Part shown: positions 4,193 through 61,280 of the stretch, one piece after another
How the letters are laid out: each line of letters starts with the position of its first letter
Position numbering within the stretch: position 1 is the stretch's first letter
DNA from: Picocystis sp. L7
Lineage: Eukaryota > Chlorophyta > Picocystophyceae > Picocystales > Picocystaceae
Reading direction: 5' to 3'
Length of the DNA: 64,000 nucleotides
Assembly (NCBI GenBank): GCA_020975725.1
Contig: QXJR01000009.1
Coordinates: 124,001-188,000, forward strand
Notes under the pieces: model-generated
The model's input: only the letters and a program-made list of their open reading frames with translations
Databases searched by the model: none
Told to the model about the DNA's origin: nothing
Made by a program: the position numbers and the translations under genes

Positions 4193-4854
4193 GCCCCCGC
4201 CATGGTGATGGGCTTCCAAGCAAGGCAGTTGGATGGGAAGGGAGTGAGGCAAGGGTGCAATGACCTTGGTTCGGCCAGAGGAGCGTTGTATCGTGGTCCT
4301 CTGTTGGCGTTGAATAATGTTAACCCGCACGGTAGGTGGGGGTACCGCACCGTTTTGGTGCAAGGGGTGTTGTGTGACTTGCGAGGACGGCGAACGCCTT
4401 GTCATTCCAGGTCGTGACGATAGCACCTTTATGTTTACGGGTGCTAGGAATCATGCCTTGGAGCAGACTGTTTTATGCCGTGGCTCGTTGCAGAAGCGAA
4501 TAAACCGACCGGCACACGCTCTGCCGGGAAATAAACTGCAAGCATTTATCTGCCGCAGGAGACATATTGGTAAAAAAAGAAAAAAAAAGCATCTGGTTTT
4601 GAAAGTGCAAGTGTTTAATACATTGTGAGTCAGGACTTGGTGCGAAGGGGGCATTCCATCCCAGCCGTTCGTTGGCCGACCGGACCTCGTAGGTTCGGCC
4701 CGTGTGCATTCCCTTGGGGGCTTTTTGCACAGGGGCGTCATGCACGAGCGTCTTTTCGTCGTCCATTCGTCCTTCACTGCATCGGGGACGTTTCGACCGT
4801 CCTGGTCCGTCTCGTACCCTCGGAGCATTCCTCGGAGGGTCCTCGACGGACCCA
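4193..4854. other. convergent 3' regions of the DDX6 and selenoprotein K genes
   Basis: About 660 bp between the two stops. The plus-strand half holds likely DDX6 polyadenylation signals (AATAAA near 4499 and 4529). The minus-strand half is the selenoprotein K 3' UTR with its SECIS element. I see no other gene. Confidence 0.6.
4686..4748 (-). promoter_or_regulatory. SECIS element in the 3' UTR of selenoprotein K
   Basis: Read on the minus strand, the order is: lower stem CTCGT/ACGAG (4744-4748 with 4686-4690); then the SECIS core with ATGA at 4738-4741 facing CGAA at 4694-4697, giving the tandem G.A pairs; then a roughly 10-bp stem GCCCCTGTGC/GCACACGGGC with one C.C mismatch; then an apical loop starting AAAAA. 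A C-rich/GGG pairing inside the loop would make it a form-II SECIS. It starts about 107 nt after the selenoprotein stop codon. These features are what SBP2 needs to recode UGA as selenocysteine. The fold was drawn by hand and no energy was computed. Confidence 0.85.
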
Positions 4855-5400
4855 TTAGCGTCATCCACCTCCCATCACGGCACAGCTTGGACCACGACTG
4901 TTTCGGACGTTGTCCATGCCGTGGACTCTACCACGGGAACTTCCTCCTCCCCCTCCTCCGTTCCACCTTCCTCCACCGCTTCCTGGCGGCGGACGTGGTC
5001 CACCTGGTCCGCGAATGCGCGTTTTTTTATCGCCTTGGACGTAGCTGTCGGTGGCTTCGGCCTGGTTGCGGTGGTTCTCGTCAGTCGTCCAGGACCCACG
5101 TTTCCTTGTCGTCGTCCGCTTTTTTTCTTTTCGGGTTCTTTTTCTCCACGTACCGAGATCATGGTTTGGAAGCTGTGCGTGCATGCACGATCGTCCGCGG
5201 CGGTGGGTCAGCACGTTTGTTTCCGTCGTTGTTTTTCGGTCCCGTTCGTCCCGTGTTTGGCGTTCCTTTCATTCGTGCGTCTATCTTTCGTCCACGTACA
5301 AGTATCCGATCGTGTTGAAGATCTCCCAGACCCATCCCACCAGTCTGTTCAGCGACCAAGGTTGCGTTTCCACCACTCTTCCGCCGTCCACGTACGGCAT
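4855..5400 (-). CDS. SELENOK: selenoprotein K, three exons, UGA read as selenocysteine
   Basis: Small ER-membrane selenoprotein; in animals it takes part in ER-associated degradation and protein palmitoylation. Exons are 5300-5400, 5154-5172 (a 19-nt microexon) and 4855-5061, giving 108 residues. The N-terminus MPYVDGGRVVETQPW, one membrane helix ending FFQTM, a Gly/Pro/Arg-rich tail and the terminus MGGGUR match the family, which ends GGUGR. U is the TGA at 4861-4863, followed by CGC and the true stop TAA at 4855-4857. Both introns (5173-5299 and 5062-5153) start GTACGTGGA, contain CTGAC and end CAG; phases join exactly. A SECIS lies downstream. Read without introns and recoding, the gene looks like two unrelated scraps. 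Confidence 0.9.
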
Positions 5401-6448
5401 CGTCGACGTGCTCGATCCGCGCGGACCGCCGCGTGCCTCGGTTGGTGGTTCGACCAGACACACCCTCAGACGGAGCCAGACACACCCCACACGTCCCTGG
5501 TTGCCCCTCCCCCTCCACCTGGGGTTGGGGTGTGTCTCCCTGCACCCTTCTCCCTTTCCGTTCCATTCCCAAGGGAAGGGACCCGGGGGTTCCCGATGGG
5601 ACCCTTCCTTTTCGAAAAGGATTCGTTTCGGGTCTATCCCCCCCTTCCCTTCCCTTCTCTCTCCGAGCTCGAGGGGGGTGGGGTGGGAACCCCCACGGGG
5701 AAGGTCCACCCGTGGGCGCCACACCGGCAGGGACAGAGAGAGATGGAGAGAGACAGATGGAGAGGGACAGAGAGATGGAGAGGGACAGAGAGATGGAGAG
5801 GGACAGAGAGATGGAGAGAGATAGAGATGGAGAGGGACAGATGGAGAGAGACAGATGGAGAGAGACAGATGGAGAAGGACAGAGATGGAGAGGGACAGAG
5901 AGATGGAGAGGGACAGAGATGGAGAGAGACAGGCAGAGATGGAGAGAGACAGAGATGGAGAGATGGAGGGACCCACAGGTGCCACACGCGCCTGGACCCT
6001 GCCGTGCAAGGACGCACGTGAACGGTCGAAGGCCGCGCGTCCGTCGATCCCATCGCCGATTGCGATGGATCCCGGTTTCGAACAAGGACCCGAGTGGACG
6101 CACGGGACGATTTCGAAAGCATCCCATGCGACGCACGTCCATGCGACGCTCCTCCACGCGCACGTGCACGTGCCAAGACCAGCCGACACCCGCGCTCGCG
6201 ACGCGGCCAGGACGTCTACTCCTTCCTCCTTCCATCCGTCCGTCCCATGGATCCCACTTACGTGCACGTGCACCAGCATGCGCACACGTCCGTCCTGCCT
6301 CGACGAACGAAGCCAGGTGCGGCCTGGGAGTCGGTCCACGTCACACGCCAACGCCGACGTCGGCGCATTCCCACGTGCACCGCCGACGCGCACGGGTCCG
6401 CGAGGGAGACGAGAGGGAGGACGGTTGCGCATCTGCGCGCATCGACGC
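5401..6448. other. divergent upstream region of selenoprotein K and RNase II, with minisatellite
   Basis: About 1,050 bp. The palindrome CCTTTTCGAAAAGG at 5607-5620 is one of several TTCGAA-centred sites upstream of genes here. A purine minisatellite occupies 5731-5971. The rest is GC-rich with open frames that look accidental (for example 4702-6021 plus and 5281-6852 minus). Confidence 0.5.
5731..5971. repeat. purine-rich minisatellite
   Basis: About 240 bp of imperfect tandem copies of a 16-18 bp unit built from GATGGAGAGGGACAGAGA and shorter GATGGAGAGAGACA versions. All purines lie on the plus strand except interspersed C and T. It sits between the two start codons and is open in several frames, giving Met-Glu-Arg-Asp repeats that should not be read as protein. 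Confidence 0.9.
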
Positions 6449-18650: not shown

Positions 18651-18790
18651 CTTTCCTCGACGCGTCGTTCATAACAACGTGGGAGCAAGAATGGCTGACA
18701 TGTCTATTTGCTCTGTAGTTTGATTATATTGTTGGAGTTGATACTGTACATGTAAAGGTAAGCTAGTCTCGCAAGCCTTTGCCTTGTCCT

Positions 18791-18860
18791 GGCGCAATGA
18801 GGAAAAGTTTGTCGGATTTTCAATGAAGAAAGTAATAACCTCCTACTCATTCTGAGTGCC
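18791..18860 (+). ncRNA. box C/D snoRNA, candidate 25S rRNA guide
   Basis: 70 nt closed by a 5-bp terminal stem GGCGC/GTGCC. Box C is ATGAGGA (one change from consensus), C' is ATGAAGA and box D is CTGA at 18852-18855. The stretch CCTCCTACTCAT just before box D is complementary to the large-subunit rRNA sequence ATGAGTAGGAGG, known from plant 25S rRNA. The fifth nucleotide before box D would place the methyl on the A of TGA. Complementarity was judged from memory, not by alignment. Confidence 0.65.
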
Positions 18861-38473: not shown

Positions 38474-38809
38474 TCACCTCAGGTGCATCTCCAGCGTTTT
38501 ACGGGTGGCTTTTCTGACCTTGCACTTGATGGTCTCCAATCCCAGTCTCTGGTGCGCTTCGAAGCGATGGCATCCAGAAAACCCGTAATACACGCCCTCC
38601 ACTTCAAGCACATCGATGGGTACCTGCAGTCCGACTTCGGCGATGCTGTCCATCAGCCAGGCCACCTTGGTCGCGTCGTTGCTTCGGGTGCGTCCCAGCG
38701 GTCTTCGGATGCTCTTCAGGGGCAGGTCTTCCACCCTTGGACTCGCAGCAACCTTCAATCGGGCCTTTGCATTCGTCTTTTGCGTCCTCCATGGGCGCAC
38801 GTGCCGCAT
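38474..38809 (-). CDS. SRX: sulfiredoxin
   Basis: A 111-residue ATP-dependent enzyme that reduces cysteine sulfinic acid on over-oxidised 2-Cys peroxiredoxins. The ParB-like fold is recognised from VEDLPLKSIRRPLGR, VAWLMDSIAEVGLQVPIDVL and the catalytic FSGCHRFEAHQRLG with the active cysteine at C80. The first 25 residues are basic with no acids, so plastid or mitochondrial targeting is possible, as in plants. The start is the ATG at 38809; the frame remains open to 39109 across the neighbouring promoter. The palindrome CCCTTTCGAAAGGG lies 84 bp upstream. Confidence 0.92.
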   Translation of the reverse strand: MRHVRPWRTQKTNAKARLKVAASPRVEDLPLKSIRRPLGRTRSNDATKVAWLMDSIAEVGLQVPIDVLEVEGVYYGFSGCHRFEAHQRLGLETIKCKVRKATRKTLEMHLR

Positions 38810-39066
38810 CTCGACTCCTCTGGATTGTGTCCATCGACCTGGCTGGGGCTCCAGGTCCCTGCCGTACGACCGGAGTTGACCGGGATCGCCTTCCCTTTCG
38901 AAAGGGAACGGTCCGGTTCGTCCCTTCCTTTCCTCCACCCCGATACCTTCCGATGAAGATCTCGATGGCGTATCGCATCCTGGTAGAGGTATCGGTGGGA
39001 AGGGGGAGGCACAAGGGAGGTGGGGGACCAATCCGACGGTCCAGACCCAAAACCTCGTCGACGAAG

Positions 39067-45899: not shown

Positions 45900-47516
45900 T
45901 CATGGTTGGACATTCTTAAAGGCTTTCCACACGTTTGCATCCATGCGCTTGCACATGGCCTTGAGCTGCTGACCAGGGCCAAGCTCGAACATCTGGTTCT
46001 TCCCTGAACCAATCATTGTCTTCATGGTTTGCTCCCATTGTACAGGCTCGCAGAGCTGACGTTTAAGAAGGGCGGCCACCTGGCTTGGATCCCCAAAAGG
46101 CTTGGCAGTTACGTTAGAATAAACTGTGATTTTAGGCTCCTTGAATTGCACATCAGCCAAGGCAGCAGCAAGCTTTTCTGATGCTGGCTCCATGAGCTTC
46201 GTATGGAAAGCGCCGGAAACAGCTACCTGGACTGCTTTGAGGGCCCCCTTTGCTGTGGCCATTTTGGCAGCTTCTTCCAATGCTTTCTTATGCCCAGAGA
46301 TGACACGGCCTTGGGGAAAGAGGTAGTTGGCAGGTTGGATGACTGTGTCAGCTCCCATTTTCTTCTTGACATCACTGCAAATCAAATTGATGTCCGAGTC
46401 ATTCAGACCGACAACGCTCAACATCCCATGGGGTTCTCCCATTTGAGCTGCCTCTGCCATGCTCTCAGCACGGACTTTCACGAGCTTCATCCCTTCCTCA
46501 AACGTCATGTATCCTCCGAAGCAGAGTGCAGTGTACTCTCCAAGCGAGAGTCCTGCCGTGACGGAGCATCCGTCGATCGCAGCTGGGTTCTCTGCTCGCA
46601 ACACTTCTATAGCTGCTAGTCCTCCAACGAAAAGGGCCGGTTGTGAGTATATGGTGTTATCCAGGTCTTCCTTGGGTCCCTTGAGACACTTCTCCAGGAG
46701 ATTGTACCCAAGGATTTCTTCAGCTTTGGCGAGCATCTCCTTGACGGCCGGAATGTCCTTTGCCTTCTCGAGCATTCCAACAGCCTGGGAGCCTTGTCCT
46801 GGAAACAGGAAGGCAATGGGGGTATCCAATGCGAGTTTATCGAGATCCACTGCATTTCCAGCTCTTGCAGCTCGGCGAGCCTTGCGTTCCTCTTTCTCTT
46901 TCCGAAGTTTCTCCGCCTCTTTCTTGCGTTTGATTTCCTCCGGATAGGGGTGTTTGTAGTTCTTGTCCCATGTTTTGATTGCGTCGATCCCGTAATCATA
47001 AAGAGCCCACCAATCTCCGATGTCTGGATGTGGTTCTTTTTCCTTGGGCACGCCCGCGTATTTCTTCTCGAGCGCATAGATTTTGTTGCGAATGCTCTCG
47101 TCTTCGGGGGCGACTTCTACGGGTGTTTTCCTTCCTGGGTTGAGGTATGGATCCCAGTCGTCTGCCTGGATGCTTGGATCTGCTCCTCGACTGAGCAGGT
47201 ACTCGTAGATTTCGAGGTATCCATCGTATTGTGCCAAGTAGGCAGCCCTGTGCAGGGCAGTCATGCCCCTGGAATCCTTCTGGTTGACTTGTCCTCTGTT
47301 GTTGAGGATGTGATGCAGCATGTCCAGTTGCCTGTAGGTGGTGGCAAAATGGATGGGTGCACCTGCACCGTTGTCTTGCGTCCAGAAGTACGGATCCACT
47401 TCCATGATCTTCGCCAGCTGCTCTGGATCTCCCAATCGCACGCAGCTGTAGAAGGCGAACGGGGGATACTTCGGCTGGGGAGGATACCTCCCCGTCGCCG
47501 TCATGTCACGTGGCAT
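45900..47516 (-). CDS. ankyrin-repeat / malonyl-CoA:ACP transacylase (FabD) fusion
   Basis: 538 residues. Residues about 15-120 are ankyrin-like (LGDPEQLAKIMEVDP, NGAGAPIHFATTYRQLDML, GMTALHRAAYLAQYDGYLEI). A conserved linker (PHPDIGDWWALYDYG) and a charged Lys/Glu/Arg segment follow. From about 230 comes a full malonyltransferase: PGQGSQ, the nucleophile serine S324 in GLSLGEY, and the partner histidine H438 in SGAFHT. The enzyme loads malonate on ACP for fatty-acid synthesis, a plastid pathway in algae. No transit peptide precedes the ankyrin part from ATG 47516, which is odd unless an upstream exon was missed. Both halves are in one frame, so the fusion is real in the DNA. Confidence 0.88.
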   Translation of the reverse strand: MPRDMTATGRYPPQPKYPPFAFYSCVRLGDPEQLAKIMEVDPYFWTQDNGAGAPIHFATTYRQLDMLHHILNNRGQVNQKDSRGMTALHRAAYLAQYDGYLEIYEYLLSRGADPSIQADDWDPYLNPGRKTPVEVAPEDESIRNKIYALEKKYAGVPKEKEPHPDIGDWWALYDYGIDAIKTWDKNYKHPYPEEIKRKKEAEKLRKEKEERKARRAARAGNAVDLDKLALDTPIAFLFPGQGSQAVGMLEKAKDIPAVKEMLAKAEEILGYNLLEKCLKGPKEDLDNTIYSQPALFVGGLAAIEVLRAENPAAIDGCSVTAGLSLGEYTALCFGGYMTFEEGMKLVKVRAESMAEAAQMGEPHGMLSVVGLNDSDINLICSDVKKKMGADTVIQPANYLFPQGRVISGHKKALEEAAKMATAKGALKAVQVAVSGAFHTKLMEPASEKLAAALADVQFKEPKITVYSNVTAKPFGDPSQVAALLKRQLCEPVQWEQTMKTMIGSGKNQMFELGPGQQLKAMCKRMDANVWKAFKNVQP

Positions 47517-48129
47517 CTTGTTGCTGCTCGGCTCTCGCACAATCCGAGGTGCGATCGACGTGCAATGCGACGTGAGGAGGCGCACTTCGAGGTCGAAGTG
47601 GACGATGTCCAGCAGCGAAAACCCATCGAGGAGAGGAAGAGGCCCGATCCACCGAACGTAACGCACGAAGAAGGAGAACATGGACCGCGGAGGACGTGGG
47701 AGGGCAGAACCGGGTCCTCGAAGGACGCGGGAGGGACGGGCACCGGCATTCGAATCGACGCGGGGTGAGAATATTCGGGAGGGGTGGAGTTGCCAGGGAA
47801 ACGAATATTCGTGGGAGGGGGGTCCAGCGGACCCCCCTCTCGCACTCCGAGTCGGATTCACATGGCCAAGTGGATTGGACGTGATGAATACTGGATCCAT
47901 GTCTCCCTGTGCCTGAGGAAACGATACGAAAACCCTTGTGAACAAGTGTGCCCTGAATGCATGCATCCAACAAATGGAAGCCAGTGCCCTCGGGATGGGA
48001 AAAACACATGTGAGCGTGCTCGTGCCTCAAAGGGACAGACCCTGGACGCCGATGCCTGATGCTCCGATGGTGGACAAATCAGCTTGTCAGCTGCCTTGAA
48101 ATTCTGCGTTCACGTCCCAACAGCTCAAC
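47517..48129. other. upstream region of the ankyrin-FabD gene and 3' region of the RMND1-like gene
   Basis: About 610 bp between two minus-strand genes. GAATATTCG occurs twice near 47,767 and 47,804. A missed 5' exon with a transit peptide for the FabD fusion could lie here, but I found no convincing one. Confidence 0.4.
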
Positions 48130-49263: not shown

Positions 49264-49484
49264 CCAAGCCGCTTTCCTTCCGTGGAAATGGCGGCGCTTC
49301 GCGTTGCGCCTCGAATGCCTGCTTCGATCCACACCCTTCCAATGCCAAGGGATTCGACCCCAACGAACCTCCCTTCTAATCGGCACCGAAACACCCTTTC
49401 CCCAAGGAAGTCCCTTTCCGACACGACCCCATCCATCCATCCATCCATCGATACCTCGACGGGCGAATGCCCCATAGATCGCGA

Positions 49485-49493
49485 TATATTATC
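49485..49493 (+). promoter_or_regulatory. TATA-like element TATATTATC before the DHHC gene
   Basis: Same 9-mer as in the HCAR promoter, flanked by ATCGAT words. It sits 46 bp before ATG 49539, which favours that start over the in-frame ATG at 49467. Confidence 0.4.
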
Positions 49494-49538
49494 GATATCT
49501 CTGTCGGGAAGATCTCGATGGGAGGACGAGGACGAGCG

Positions 49539-50963
49539 ATGCGATGGACGTCAATTCGCGCATTTCGTGTCGCGTCGCGCGGCTTTCACATGCCTCCGCG
49601 CGGCCTCGGCGGACTCGCACTGGACAGGAAAGAAGGCAAAAAGACCTCCGGCAGAAGCCAGGATGGCAAAAAGGAGAGCCAGGGCCGCAGAAGGGGCGAT
49701 TCGCAAGTGGAAAAGGAGGCGCGAGAACGACAGCTTGCGCAGGTGGTCTTGAAGCAAGCTGCGAAGGTGGAAGACGATCCAATGGGCGGACAAAAGATCG
49801 ATGGAAGGAGGGAAGATGTGCAAAAACACTCAGTCATGACCATCCGTGCCGTTCCAACGCACGGATTCCCTCCGCCGTCGATGGATGATCCACTGGCCAG
49901 TGAACCCAATTGGATCTCCCTGTACTTGCGTGCATACAGCGACAGCCTGGATGCTGCCACCCCTTTCCTGGTCATGCTGATCCTCATGTGGGTGGTCTTC
50001 CTAGGCTCGCCGTTGCTGGCGCTCGTACTCTTCCCTGTGCTGTTCTTTGGAGGGGTCACGGTTTTGGCACGCACACGCGGAGTGCCGACCCACCTGTACT
50101 TGGGGTCCAGGTATCTATTGGTGTTCATGATATTGGTTCTTGGCATCACCGGCGCACATTTCTTTGCACAGGTCTTCATGTGGACTCGGGACTACACCAT
50201 GGAGCAATTGCTCTTCATTGGATTGTTCGCGGCCGAGCCGTACTTCTTCTGGAAGTCGGTGCAGATGGACCCAGGCACTTTGAAACGAGAGGACGCAAAT
50301 CCCCTCATGCCAAGCGAGGCGGAGTCCAGCGCATCGAAATATTGCACGACGTGCAGGATTGATCGTCCGGTCCGTGCCAAGCATTGTGGATTCTGCGGTC
50401 GCTGCATTGTTCGTTTCGACCACCACTGTCCGCTCATTTACAACTGTGTTGGGGAATCCAACCAGGCCTGCTTCTTGGCATTTCTGACCATTGGATTTGC
50501 AGGTCAGCTTATTTATTTGCACTTGTGCGTGGTTTCCTGGCTGCGTGGCGTTGGTTACTCCAGCAATTCGAATTGGCTCGTCACCCTTTCGAACTTGGTG
50601 CCGGCTTTTCGAACGGCCAGGGCCAAGTACTCCATGGCGGTATTCTGGAGTGTTTTTCACGTGCTTGCCAGTCCTGCGCTATGCATGCTGTGGCTTCGTC
50701 AATTCACGTGTATGTTGGCCAACATCACGACCAACGAGATGGTGAATTGGCACAGGTACGAGTACTTGCTGGACCGGCAGGGAGGATTCCTGAACGTGTT
50801 TGATGCTGGGGTGGTGCACAACGTGAAGGACTTCTTGACCGACGCTCGCATCGATTGGGACGTTCGATGGATGGATCTCCAAGCTTCTCGGACGACTCGC
50901 TTCCCGACTTGGATTTCGTCCGTGGTCCAACGCCTGTGGTTATCGCGGCGTCCACACCGATGA
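49539..50963 (+). CDS. DHHC-type protein S-acyltransferase
   Basis: A 474-residue palmitoyltransferase. The cysteine-rich domain CTTCRIDRPVRAKHCGFCGRC leads to the catalytic DHHC in FDHHCPLIYNCVGESNQ. Two membrane helix pairs flank it (about 120-190 and 325-430). The sequence around DHHC and the WHRYEYL segment resemble the HIP14/AKR1 branch, which normally has N-terminal ankyrin repeats; here the N-terminus is a 110-residue basic low-complexity stretch instead. It probably acts at Golgi or endosomes. The start was chosen from the TATA-like element; ATGs at 49467 and 49518 are alternatives. Confidence 0.9.
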   Translation: MRWTSIRAFRVASRGFHMPPRGLGGLALDRKEGKKTSGRSQDGKKESQGRRRGDSQVEKEARERQLAQVVLKQAAKVEDDPMGGQKIDGRREDVQKHSVMTIRAVPTHGFPPPSMDDPLASEPNWISLYLRAYSDSLDAATPFLVMLILMWVVFLGSPLLALVLFPVLFFGGVTVLARTRGVPTHLYLGSRYLLVFMILVLGITGAHFFAQVFMWTRDYTMEQLLFIGLFAAEPYFFWKSVQMDPGTLKREDANPLMPSEAESSASKYCTTCRIDRPVRAKHCGFCGRCIVRFDHHCPLIYNCVGESNQACFLAFLTIGFAGQLIYLHLCVVSWLRGVGYSSNSNWLVTLSNLVPAFRTARAKYSMAVFWSVFHVLASPALCMLWLRQFTCMLANITTNEMVNWHRYEYLLDRQGGFLNVFDAGVVHNVKDFLTDARIDWDVRWMDLQASRTTRFPTWISSVVQRLWLSRRPHR

Positions 50964-58238: not shown

Positions 58239-59199
58239 TCACAGGTTCTGCTTGGCATAGAAAGACACAGTCTCGAAGACAGAGTTTGCCGTGGTGATGT
58301 AGGCAAACAACACGCCGCTGAATCCACCGACCAGGAACCCAGAGGTGAACTTCTCCCAGCCTTCCGCGGTGTAGAGTGCATCTGTAGGGAGGTCCCTTCC
58401 GGTCAAGGTCTTCTTCCCAAGCATCACGTCATCACCTTGGTAGGTGACCTTTCCATAGATGGAAAGGCAAGCTGCCAGGATGGCCACCAATCCCCAGCTG
58501 GAGAGCACGCCTGCCGTCGATGCAGAAGGGGTGTCGCGCAGAGGACCAAGGGCCAGGAAGGGTCCAAGAAGGAGGTATCCGTGGGCAAGGCCGATCTCCA
58601 CGCCTCGCAGTACGGGCGATACGCTGCGACGGTTGGCAGGAAGTCCAGCCAAGAATCCAGCCACGAGTGGAGAGGAAGTCACCGGCGTTTCCAGCATGCC
58701 AATGAAGGGATCGCCATTGAGAGGCTGGATCACCTGAGCCTGCCACCAGCCATTCGAAACAACCGATCCAAGGGTCAGTACTACCGCTTCACATTTCACG
58801 AGTCCCTCGCGTTCGTGACGCCGTGTCTCCCCTCCCCAACCACGGCCGGCTGTGATCTTCGGAGTTGCCAACCACCTTCCAACGGAAATCCATCGGATCT
58901 CCCCTTTTCGCCACGTTCGCAGGCCGCGAACCACGTTCTCGCGGCACCGTCACGTTCTCCAGGAAGTGTTCCTGCATCCACCGTTCGTCGCACGCTTTCC
59001 ATCTGCGTCGCCATCCCACGTCCGAGGCGTCACGTGTCGTTCCCTGCTCGTTTCCCTCGCACTCTCGACGCACCTTCTTCTCGTCTGCTGCGCGCACGAC
59101 CACCACGCGTGCACCACTCCTCCTGGAGGTCCTGGCACGGTGCACCTTGGGCGCGGAGGTGCGTGCGATGCCGTGAGCGTTCAGGAGCGCGGTCGCCAT
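58239..59199 (-). CDS. psaL: photosystem I subunit XI, two exons
   Basis: 208-residue precursor. Exon 1 is 59074-59199 and exon 2 is 58239-58739; the 334-bp intron starts GTGCGT, carries CTGAC and ends GGCAG, phase 0. Exon 1 is a chloroplast transit peptide (MATALLNAHGIARTS...ADEKK). The mature part starts AQVIQPLNGDPFIG, then LETPVTSSPLVAGFL, VLRGVEIGLAHGYLLLGPF and two more membrane helices, as in PsaL. PsaL sits at the edge of PSI and contacts LHCII in green plants. Its nuclear location excludes a red-derived plastid of the usual type. The acceptor could also be 6 nt later (CAG/GTG) without changing frame. Confidence 0.94.
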
Positions 59200-59708
59200 G
59201 TTGCGGTTTCCAAGCACGTCTCTTGCGACGGATTGCATCGGTGAGAGGGACCCCTTCCATCCCTGGGCACGCTCGAAGCACTCGTCGACGAGGATAGGAT
59301 TGATCGATACAGGGATTCCTCCACGGGGACGGGTGGAAGGTTCGGCCTATCCGCAGGCCAGGGAGTCCCGAAGGGTGCTGCTCGCTCATTGGTCGAACGC
59401 CCCCGATGGGGATCCGGGAGGGAACACTGGGACGAAGCTATCGATCAAAAGGGGTCTCCATCGATATTTCGTATCCGAGCTATCGATCCGGGGACGGACC
59501 GATCGATACTTCGGAATCGAAGTATCGATGATGCGGTAGAGATTGCGATCAAAGGGAAAAAGGTGTCGATGCAGCGAGGAGAGGTGGACGAATGGGGTGG
59601 CCACCGACGAGGAGGATTGCGACGCGTGATGCGGGGAAACGAGCTCCTTTCGATCGCAAGAGAAGCTCGTAAAACCTAAGAAGAACAAGGTTGGAACCGA
59701 AGATAGCG
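59200..59708. promoter_or_regulatory. divergent promoter, psaL / TAF1B
   Basis: About 510 bp. ATCGAT-containing words recur through it (59300, 59438, 59459, 59490, 59502, 59522). It holds a long inverted repeat listed separately. No gene seen. Confidence 0.45.
59502..59529. promoter_or_regulatory. perfect inverted repeat ATCGATACTTC / GAAGTATCGAT
   Basis: Two 11-bp arms separated by GGAATC. It lies 180 bp before the TAF1B start and 300 bp before psaL. It could be a dimer-protein site or a cruciform. Confidence 0.5.
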
Positions 59709-61280
59709 ATGGAGGAGTCCCAGCCGCTGGAAGGAGAGCGATGCGCGGCCTGTGGGAGCCCCAACCTGGAGATGGACGAAGGAGGATTCGCCTATTGCCT
59801 GGCTTGCGGGATGCAAGTGTATGCGTATACTCAAGAGGTGGTGGAGACGCAAGAAAATATGAGACACTTCAGATCCACCAAATTGCAAAAGAGGAGTCGA
59901 GATGGAGATCCAGTACGACAAGAGACGGGACCGTCGGCCTCCGAGAGGGCCCTGGAAATGGTGGAGGCCCATTGCACCTGCTGCCAATCCGTCTTGGAAG
60001 GTCAGTACGACATCCTGGAAGCCAAATTCGGATTCCACGAGTCCGTGAGGGAGTTGGTCAAAGGATTATGGGCCGTGCTATTGGACAATTCTGAAATTCT
60101 TTCGAACGAAAACCTCTCCCAGGCAACTAGAGCGCTAGAGACGGCTGCCGAGGAAGACGACGCCGAGGCCACGGATGGAGAGAACCAGGCTGGAACCGGT
60201 GGGAAATCCACCAGAAGATTGTATGATTTGCAAGTGAAGCTTCGATCCAAAGTCAACTTGGAGCATGTGCTATCGATCCTTTACTTTGCATGCCTTTGGT
60301 CCAGGAAAGCAGTGGCTGGATTTGACTTGCTGGTATGGGTGGTGGATGGGACGCTTCCATACTTTTCTGTGGCTTCAGTCGTTTCCCCTGAAGTTCTTGA
60401 GAAGGTCCCTGCATGGAAGACCACCCTCGATGCCAATTCGGTTCCAGACATGGGTGTCCTAGATAGCGGCGTCGAGAAGCTCTTGCTGGCAACCAAGCTG
60501 GAGATTCTTCCCCCCAACGCTCCTGCCCTCATCAATCGTTTTGTCAGGGAACTAGATTTGCCTAGGCAATTGTGCGTTCCCTGCGAAAGGTTGTGTCTAC
60601 TTTTGCCAAAGGTGGCCTTGTCTTACTGCCCAAATGCAATGCGAAACCCACTCAAGGAGTACCGCTTGCCACCCACGGCGTTTCTGATAGCTACTTTGAT
60701 CGTAGTGCTGAAGCTAGTCTATGGTCTGGAGGACGAAGCGAAAGCCAAAGCAATGCCGCCGTTTCCGCCCCCATACATCTGGAAGGCTTGGGCCAGAGAG
60801 CAAATGCGAACAGCCCCCTATCGACGAATCTGGACCCAGGAAAAGGTCGAGCATTGCCAAGCAGACCTGAAGTCTATGGCAGATTACATCCGGTTTTGCA
60901 ACCAAGTTATTTTTCGAGATCAGAGAGCAGATACTGAGTTGAGAGGAGTGGAACAATTTCTTGGGGAGACGGCCAAGCCGTTCTTGGAGCTACCTAAACC
61001 AGAGGGGCCCGCACGCTCAGATTTTACAGATTTTCGCCTGCTGTCTGAAGCTTCTCAACGTGAAATCGGGGTCCTGCCTAGAGAGCAAAAATTTGACAGG
61101 GTTCGATGGAGCAAGACCGACCCGTTTGCATCAGACTACCATGCCGTCGTCCATGCATGTGCCTTGTATGCTTGGCTGGACCCGGTAGCTCTTGCGGATG
61201 CTGTCTACCTTGTAGAGGACCATTTGTGCAACCTAGAGAGGGCTGCGAATGGTGGTTTTGAAAGTGAGGACAATGCATGA
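59709..61280 (+). CDS. TAF1B: RNA polymerase I initiation factor, TAF1B/Rrn7 family
   Basis: A 523-residue TFIIB-like factor for rRNA gene transcription in the nucleolus. An N-terminal zinc ribbon has C12, C15, C30 and C33 (CAACG...CLACG). The cyclin-like region follows (about 80-420), with blocks such as LEHVLSILYFACLWSRKAV, KEYRLPPTAFLIATLIVVLKLVYGL and WTQEKVEHCQADLKSM. The match is to the plant TAF1B-like proteins. The open frame begins with TTG at 59691; ATG 59709 is used. Confidence 0.87.
   Translation: MEESQPLEGERCAACGSPNLEMDEGGFAYCLACGMQVYAYTQEVVETQENMRHFRSTKLQKRSRDGDPVRQETGPSASERALEMVEAHCTCCQSVLEGQYDILEAKFGFHESVRELVKGLWAVLLDNSEILSNENLSQATRALETAAEEDDAEATDGENQAGTGGKSTRRLYDLQVKLRSKVNLEHVLSILYFACLWSRKAVAGFDLLVWVVDGTLPYFSVASVVSPEVLEKVPAWKTTLDANSVPDMGVLDSGVEKLLLATKLEILPPNAPALINRFVRELDLPRQLCVPCERLCLLLPKVALSYCPNAMRNPLKEYRLPPTAFLIATLIVVLKLVYGLEDEAKAKAMPPFPPPYIWKAWAREQMRTAPYRRIWTQEKVEHCQADLKSMADYIRFCNQVIFRDQRADTELRGVEQFLGETAKPFLELPKPEGPARSDFTDFRLLSEASQREIGVLPREQKFDRVRWSKTDPFASDYHAVVHACALYAWLDPVALADAVYLVEDHLCNLERAANGGFESEDNA

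Follow-up and report, generated by a model that had tools for sequence, protein, structure and literature searches.

Organization of the SelK Locus

The window (the whole 64,000-nt stretch of DNA that was analysed) very probably carries, on its minus strand between positions 5400 and 4855, a real selenoprotein K (SelK) gene of an ordinary kind. The predicted start codon, an ATG at 5400, opens exon 1 (5300..5400, 101 nt), which encodes a short N-terminus and the first part of a predicted membrane helix. Exon 1 is followed by intron 1 (5173..5299, 127 nt, GTACGT...CACAG, that is, GTACGTGGA...CACAG) and then by an exon 2 of 19 nt (5154..5172), which completes one Phe codon and adds the residues FQTMIS, with which the helix ends. 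Intron 2 (5062..5153, 92 nt, GTACGT...ACCAG, or GTACGTGGA...ACCAG) separates this small exon from exon 3 (4855..5061, 207 nt), which specifies a Gly/Pro/Arg-rich tail ending in RGPSCAVMGGGU-R and the stop codon TAA (4857-4855). An in-frame TGA at 4861..4863, residue 107 of 108, is presumably read as selenocysteine (Sec). All of these features lie on the minus strand, and the two introns share both their 5' start, GTACGTGGA, and their 3' end, CAG.

When the exons of 101, 19 and 207 nt are joined, they remain in phase and yield a protein of 108 residues, MPYVDGGRVV...RGPSCAVMGGGUR; the first-pass annotation had described such a product, encoded by three exons of which one measures only 19 nt, and its minus-strand coordinates were reproduced by our analysis. 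If intron 1 is retained, the reading frame ends after LYVDER. The gene is likely to be overlooked by gene finders, because two introns cut it and its selenium codon resembles a stop, and it is a clean case of what stop-to-stop and ordinary gene finding tend to miss. A purine-rich tandem repeat (5729-5962) lies between this gene and a divergently oriented one whose product has an RNB domain of the RNase II type.

Assignment to the SelK Family

The joined product matches the Pfam family SelK_SelG (PF10961) with 48.5 bits (E = 1.4e-12), about twice the curated cut-off of 23.3, so that the family search proposed along with the earlier identification as SelK turned out positive. The frame 5400-5281, in which exon 1 is read on into intron 1 and no choice of splice sites is involved, scores 28.6 bits against the same cut-off; this stretch, when placed within the entire 526-codon stop-to-stop frame, reaches 21.3 bits, slightly below it. 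The tail is insufficient by itself for membership, since the part from FFQTMIS onwards attains no more than 9.6 bits (E = 1.8) when scored separately, and a Pfam scan of exon 3 by itself returned no match. Aligned locally with the human SelK sequence used for comparison, the product scores 100, whereas none of 2000 shuffled versions of the query exceeds 62. The C-terminal ends align as RGPSPPPMAGGU for human SelK and RGPSCAVMGGGU for the protein described here; the GGGU-R tail context that had been claimed is present, with RGPSxxxMxGGU common to both sequences.

Several long stop-to-stop frames overlap the locus on both strands, as would be expected if there were no gene here and the open frames were a chance run in GC-rich DNA, or if the protein were encoded on another frame. 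When six of the overlapping frames (four on the plus strand and two on the minus strand) were compared to Pfam, however, the sole match was SelK_SelG, in the minus-strand frame that holds exon 1, and the joined model exceeds the cut-off of that family twofold. We consider the absence of a SelK gene to be barely conceivable.

Other searches with the joined protein were less informative. It has no match in NCBIfam, and a search of PDB sequences returned six weak matches (best E = 0.016), all to unrelated proteins. A scan of viral contigs gave 225 pattern matches with no relative among them, and a literature search for the C-terminal letters of human SelK found no paper.

Alternative Splicing Models

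To place the proposed exons among other possibilities, models were enumerated with GT-AG introns, up to two per model and 40-350 nt each, that run from the ATG to the TGA/TAA with the frame kept. There are 1384 such models that stay open to the TGA, and eight of them have GTRMGT at every donor; the proposed model is the best of those eight by its score against human SelK (100). Among all 1384 it ranks 11th by the same comparison, level with the 12th, and the ten models that score higher (101-110) have the same intron 1 and a weaker second donor. The SelK_SelG scores of the contenders lie close together: 48.5 bits for the proposed model, 47.1 for the best-ranked weak-donor alternative and 46.3 for a model with the acceptor at 5077. 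Because the best-ranked weak-donor model scores so similarly, the second donor is not fixed by homology and was chosen by its motif. Good support exists, in comparison, for the position at which the 19-nt exon begins: a one-intron model that lacks this exon falls to 18.4 bits, below the cut-off of 23.3, and another one-intron model has no SelK_SelG score in Pfam.

The same SelK gene might therefore be spliced in another way, either through a single 255-nt intron (5299-5045) that skips exon 2 or through a second donor such as that at 5149, and both of these alternatives keep the frame. The 5149/5034 model, with its 47.1 bits in Pfam, even scores 110 against human SelK, above the 100 of the proposed model. 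Its donor is GTGGAG, though, which differs from the GTRCGT type found in intron 1 and in psaL (see below), and a product that lacks exon 2 loses 30 bits in Pfam, which puts it under the cut-off, and has a hydrophobic peak of 0.75 instead of 0.86. We regard such alternative splicing as unlikely; it would in any case be a variant within the explanation favored here, with which it overlaps.

Donor sequences of the type used in the proposed model are frequent in the window. There are 9 copies of GTACGT on the plus strand and 17 on the minus strand, versus 4.5 expected, and 23 and 30 copies of GTGCGT, respectively, versus 12.9 expected. A comparable intron interrupts the window's psaL gene (GTGCGT...GGCAG), so this donor type is used elsewhere in the same DNA.

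The psaL gene, for photosystem I subunit XI, occupies 58239-59199 on the minus strand and is a nuclear gene that has a single intron and encodes a plain transit peptide. Its exon 1 (59199-59074) and exon 2 (58739-58239) are separated by this 334-nt intron and join in phase 0. The exon 2 region matches Pfam PsaL with 181.9 bits, and the top match in PDB, among the best 60 of 86 matching sequences, is 6igz_L (209.8 bits), which comes from a green alga. Red algae and the secondary plastids derived from them encode psaL in the plastid. A psaL that is nuclear, interrupted by an intron and equipped with a plain transit peptide therefore suggests that the DNA belongs to an alga of the green lineage, and not to Porphyridium, which had been considered at first; of all features in the window, psaL is the best indication of the source.

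The UGA Codon and a Candidate SECIS Element

The recoding of UGA as Sec depends in eukaryotes on an RNA signal, the SECIS element, and on a machinery that includes tRNA-Sec, SBP2, EFsec and PSTK. The 3' region of the SelK gene contains a good candidate for a SECIS element of form 2 at 4686..4748 on the minus strand, detected by its pattern and by its minimum-energy fold; the first-pass annotation had named no such element. The fold consists of a helix I of 6 pairs, an internal loop AUGA/CGA, a helix II of 4+6 pairs, an A-rich bulge and a mini-helix of 3 pairs; at the core, the ATGA (4741-4738) lies opposite CGA, with the GA at 4696-4695, and 119 nt separate the TGA codon from this ATGA. The minimum-energy fold is more stable than that of shuffled sequences, with z = -3.38 for 81 nt and z = -3.27 for 66 nt, and shuffles did as well in 0/200 and 1/200 cases, respectively.

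A looser first scan for SECIS elements had given 16 rows on the minus strand and 13 on the plus strand, with several rows repeating a single site, and for this reason a stricter pattern was adopted, the thresholds of which were written after the element had been spotted by eye. With helix I included, this pattern matches once over both strands of the window (128 kb), at 4748-4686, and simulated DNA yielded 3 matches in 2 Mb with the dinucleotide composition of the window and none in 2 Mb with that of the 3' region. Without helix I there are 2 matches in the window, as compared to 18 and 2 in the two simulations; the additional match, at 60045 on the plus strand, lies within an open frame (59673-61280).

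The UGA might simply be a stop, in which case the gene would encode a Sec-less SelK homologue of 106 residues in an organism without Sec insertion. The codon is only three bases ahead of the UAA, so that termination there would lose just two residues, and Rfam, which contains SECIS models, detects none at the locus: no family was matched in a scan of 4300-5100 up to E = 5, and a scan of the window at gathering scores returned one snoRNA and no SECIS. Set against this are the GGGU-R context, which is kept here, and the SECIS-shaped element downstream, the sole full-pattern match on both strands of the window. In our estimation termination at the UGA is highly improbable, and we infer that the SelK transcript is spliced and that Sec is inserted.

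The snoRNA, of the C/D-box family snoZ105, maps to 18789-18855 on the plus strand (47.1 bits versus a gathering score of 45). No tRNA genes were found in the 64,000 nt of the window. On the minus strand, the frame 38474-38860 reaches 21.5 bits with Pfam ParB_N, below the cut-off of 26.3, as well as scores with two ParB-type NCBIfam models that are far under their cut-offs, and looks like sulfiredoxin by its FSGCHR motif. Another minus-strand region, 45900-48026, combines ankyrin repeats and an acyltransferase domain (Acyl_transf_1) in one open frame.

Features of the Predicted Protein

The SelK/SelS group is described by a membrane helix in the N-terminal part, by an abundance of Gly, Pro and positively charged residues in the tail, and by a Sec that is second or third from the C-terminus (PMC10650576). 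The 68-residue tail of the predicted SelK fits this description, with 26 Gly plus Pro residues and 11 Arg plus Lys as compared to 4 Asp plus Glu, and so does the position of the putative Sec, which would be second-last (residue 107/108). The helix is less clear-cut. There is one hydrophobic peak only, at residues 21-39, and it is weak, with a value of 0.86 on the Kyte-Doolittle scale versus 1.83 for human SelK; the usual threshold for a membrane helix is 1.6.

Proposed Expression and Function

The sequence, the reading frame, the family match and the SECIS-shaped fold are direct observations at this locus. The original identification as SelK is supported: the family match, the GGGU-R sequence at the C-terminus, the fact that the tiny exon is needed and the SECIS candidate downstream all agree with it. 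We are confident that the locus represents a nuclear algal SelK gene, probably of the green lineage, from which two introns are spliced and whose UGA is read as Sec by means of a form 2 SECIS element. Two short spliceosomal introns would be removed from the transcript to join 101, 19 and 207 nt, and ribosomes would read the UGA, three bases before the UAA, as Sec owing to a form 2 SECIS in the mRNA, the AUGA of which lies 119 nt further on. The product would span the membrane once, by a helix at about residues 20-39 that is preceded by a short N-terminus and followed by a cytosolic tail rich in Gly, Pro and Arg, and its second-last residue would be Sec. By analogy with animal SelK, it might reside in the ER and take part in protein quality control and redox handling.

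Known binding partners of SelK include p97 and the derlins. The window also encodes a DHHC palmitoyltransferase (49380-50963, plus strand), which we do not link to SelK because the two genes are 44 kb apart. Animal SelK is described as working with DHHC6 (PMC10650576).

Comparison with Known Selenoproteins

A Sec-containing SelK is already known from green algae, and the gene described here is one more; it leaves the general picture of selenoprotein biology unchanged. Table 2 of PMC2375036 lists Sec-containing SelK for Ostreococcus tauri and O. lucimarinus as well as for Dictyostelium discoideum and Drosophila pseudoobscura, and the likeness to the two Ostreococcus species is drawn from this listing and not from an alignment. 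In algae, SELENOK is described as a family that occurs almost exclusively in the Sec form and, at the same time, is among the Sec proteins with the narrowest distribution (PMC7539508); to this sparsely distributed family the present gene adds a member with a readable SECIS candidate. According to PMC2375036, the SECIS elements of O. tauri have a G before the core in all but one case and a long apical mini-stem in almost all, whereas the candidate here is of the ATGA type with a mini-stem of three pairs.

The predicted protein resembles human SELENOK in its N-terminus, in the FFxT with which the helix closes, in the Gly/Pro/Arg-rich tail and in the terminal RGPSxxxMxGGU. It differs in its longer glycine run, in its weaker hydrophobic peak and in the position of Sec, which is second-last (107 of 108) as compared to third-last in the human protein (92 of 94).

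The single Cys of the algal protein, Cys100, lies seven residues before Sec107. In human SelS, a bond between Cys174 and Sec188 has been proposed (PMC3628699), and for that reason an intramolecular selenenylsulfide between Cys100 and Sec107, acting as a SelS-like redox switch, might be imagined for the algal SelK, although we think it rather doubtful. SelS has an N-terminal membrane helix and a penultimate Sec that is preceded by a Cys (PMC3628699), an arrangement that is also predicted for the protein described here, but the distance between the two residues is 14 in SelS and 7 here, and the Pfam match of our protein is to SelK_SelG alone. If it does form, the bond would constitute a redox switch that is impossible in human SelK, which has no Cys in the sequence used for comparison.
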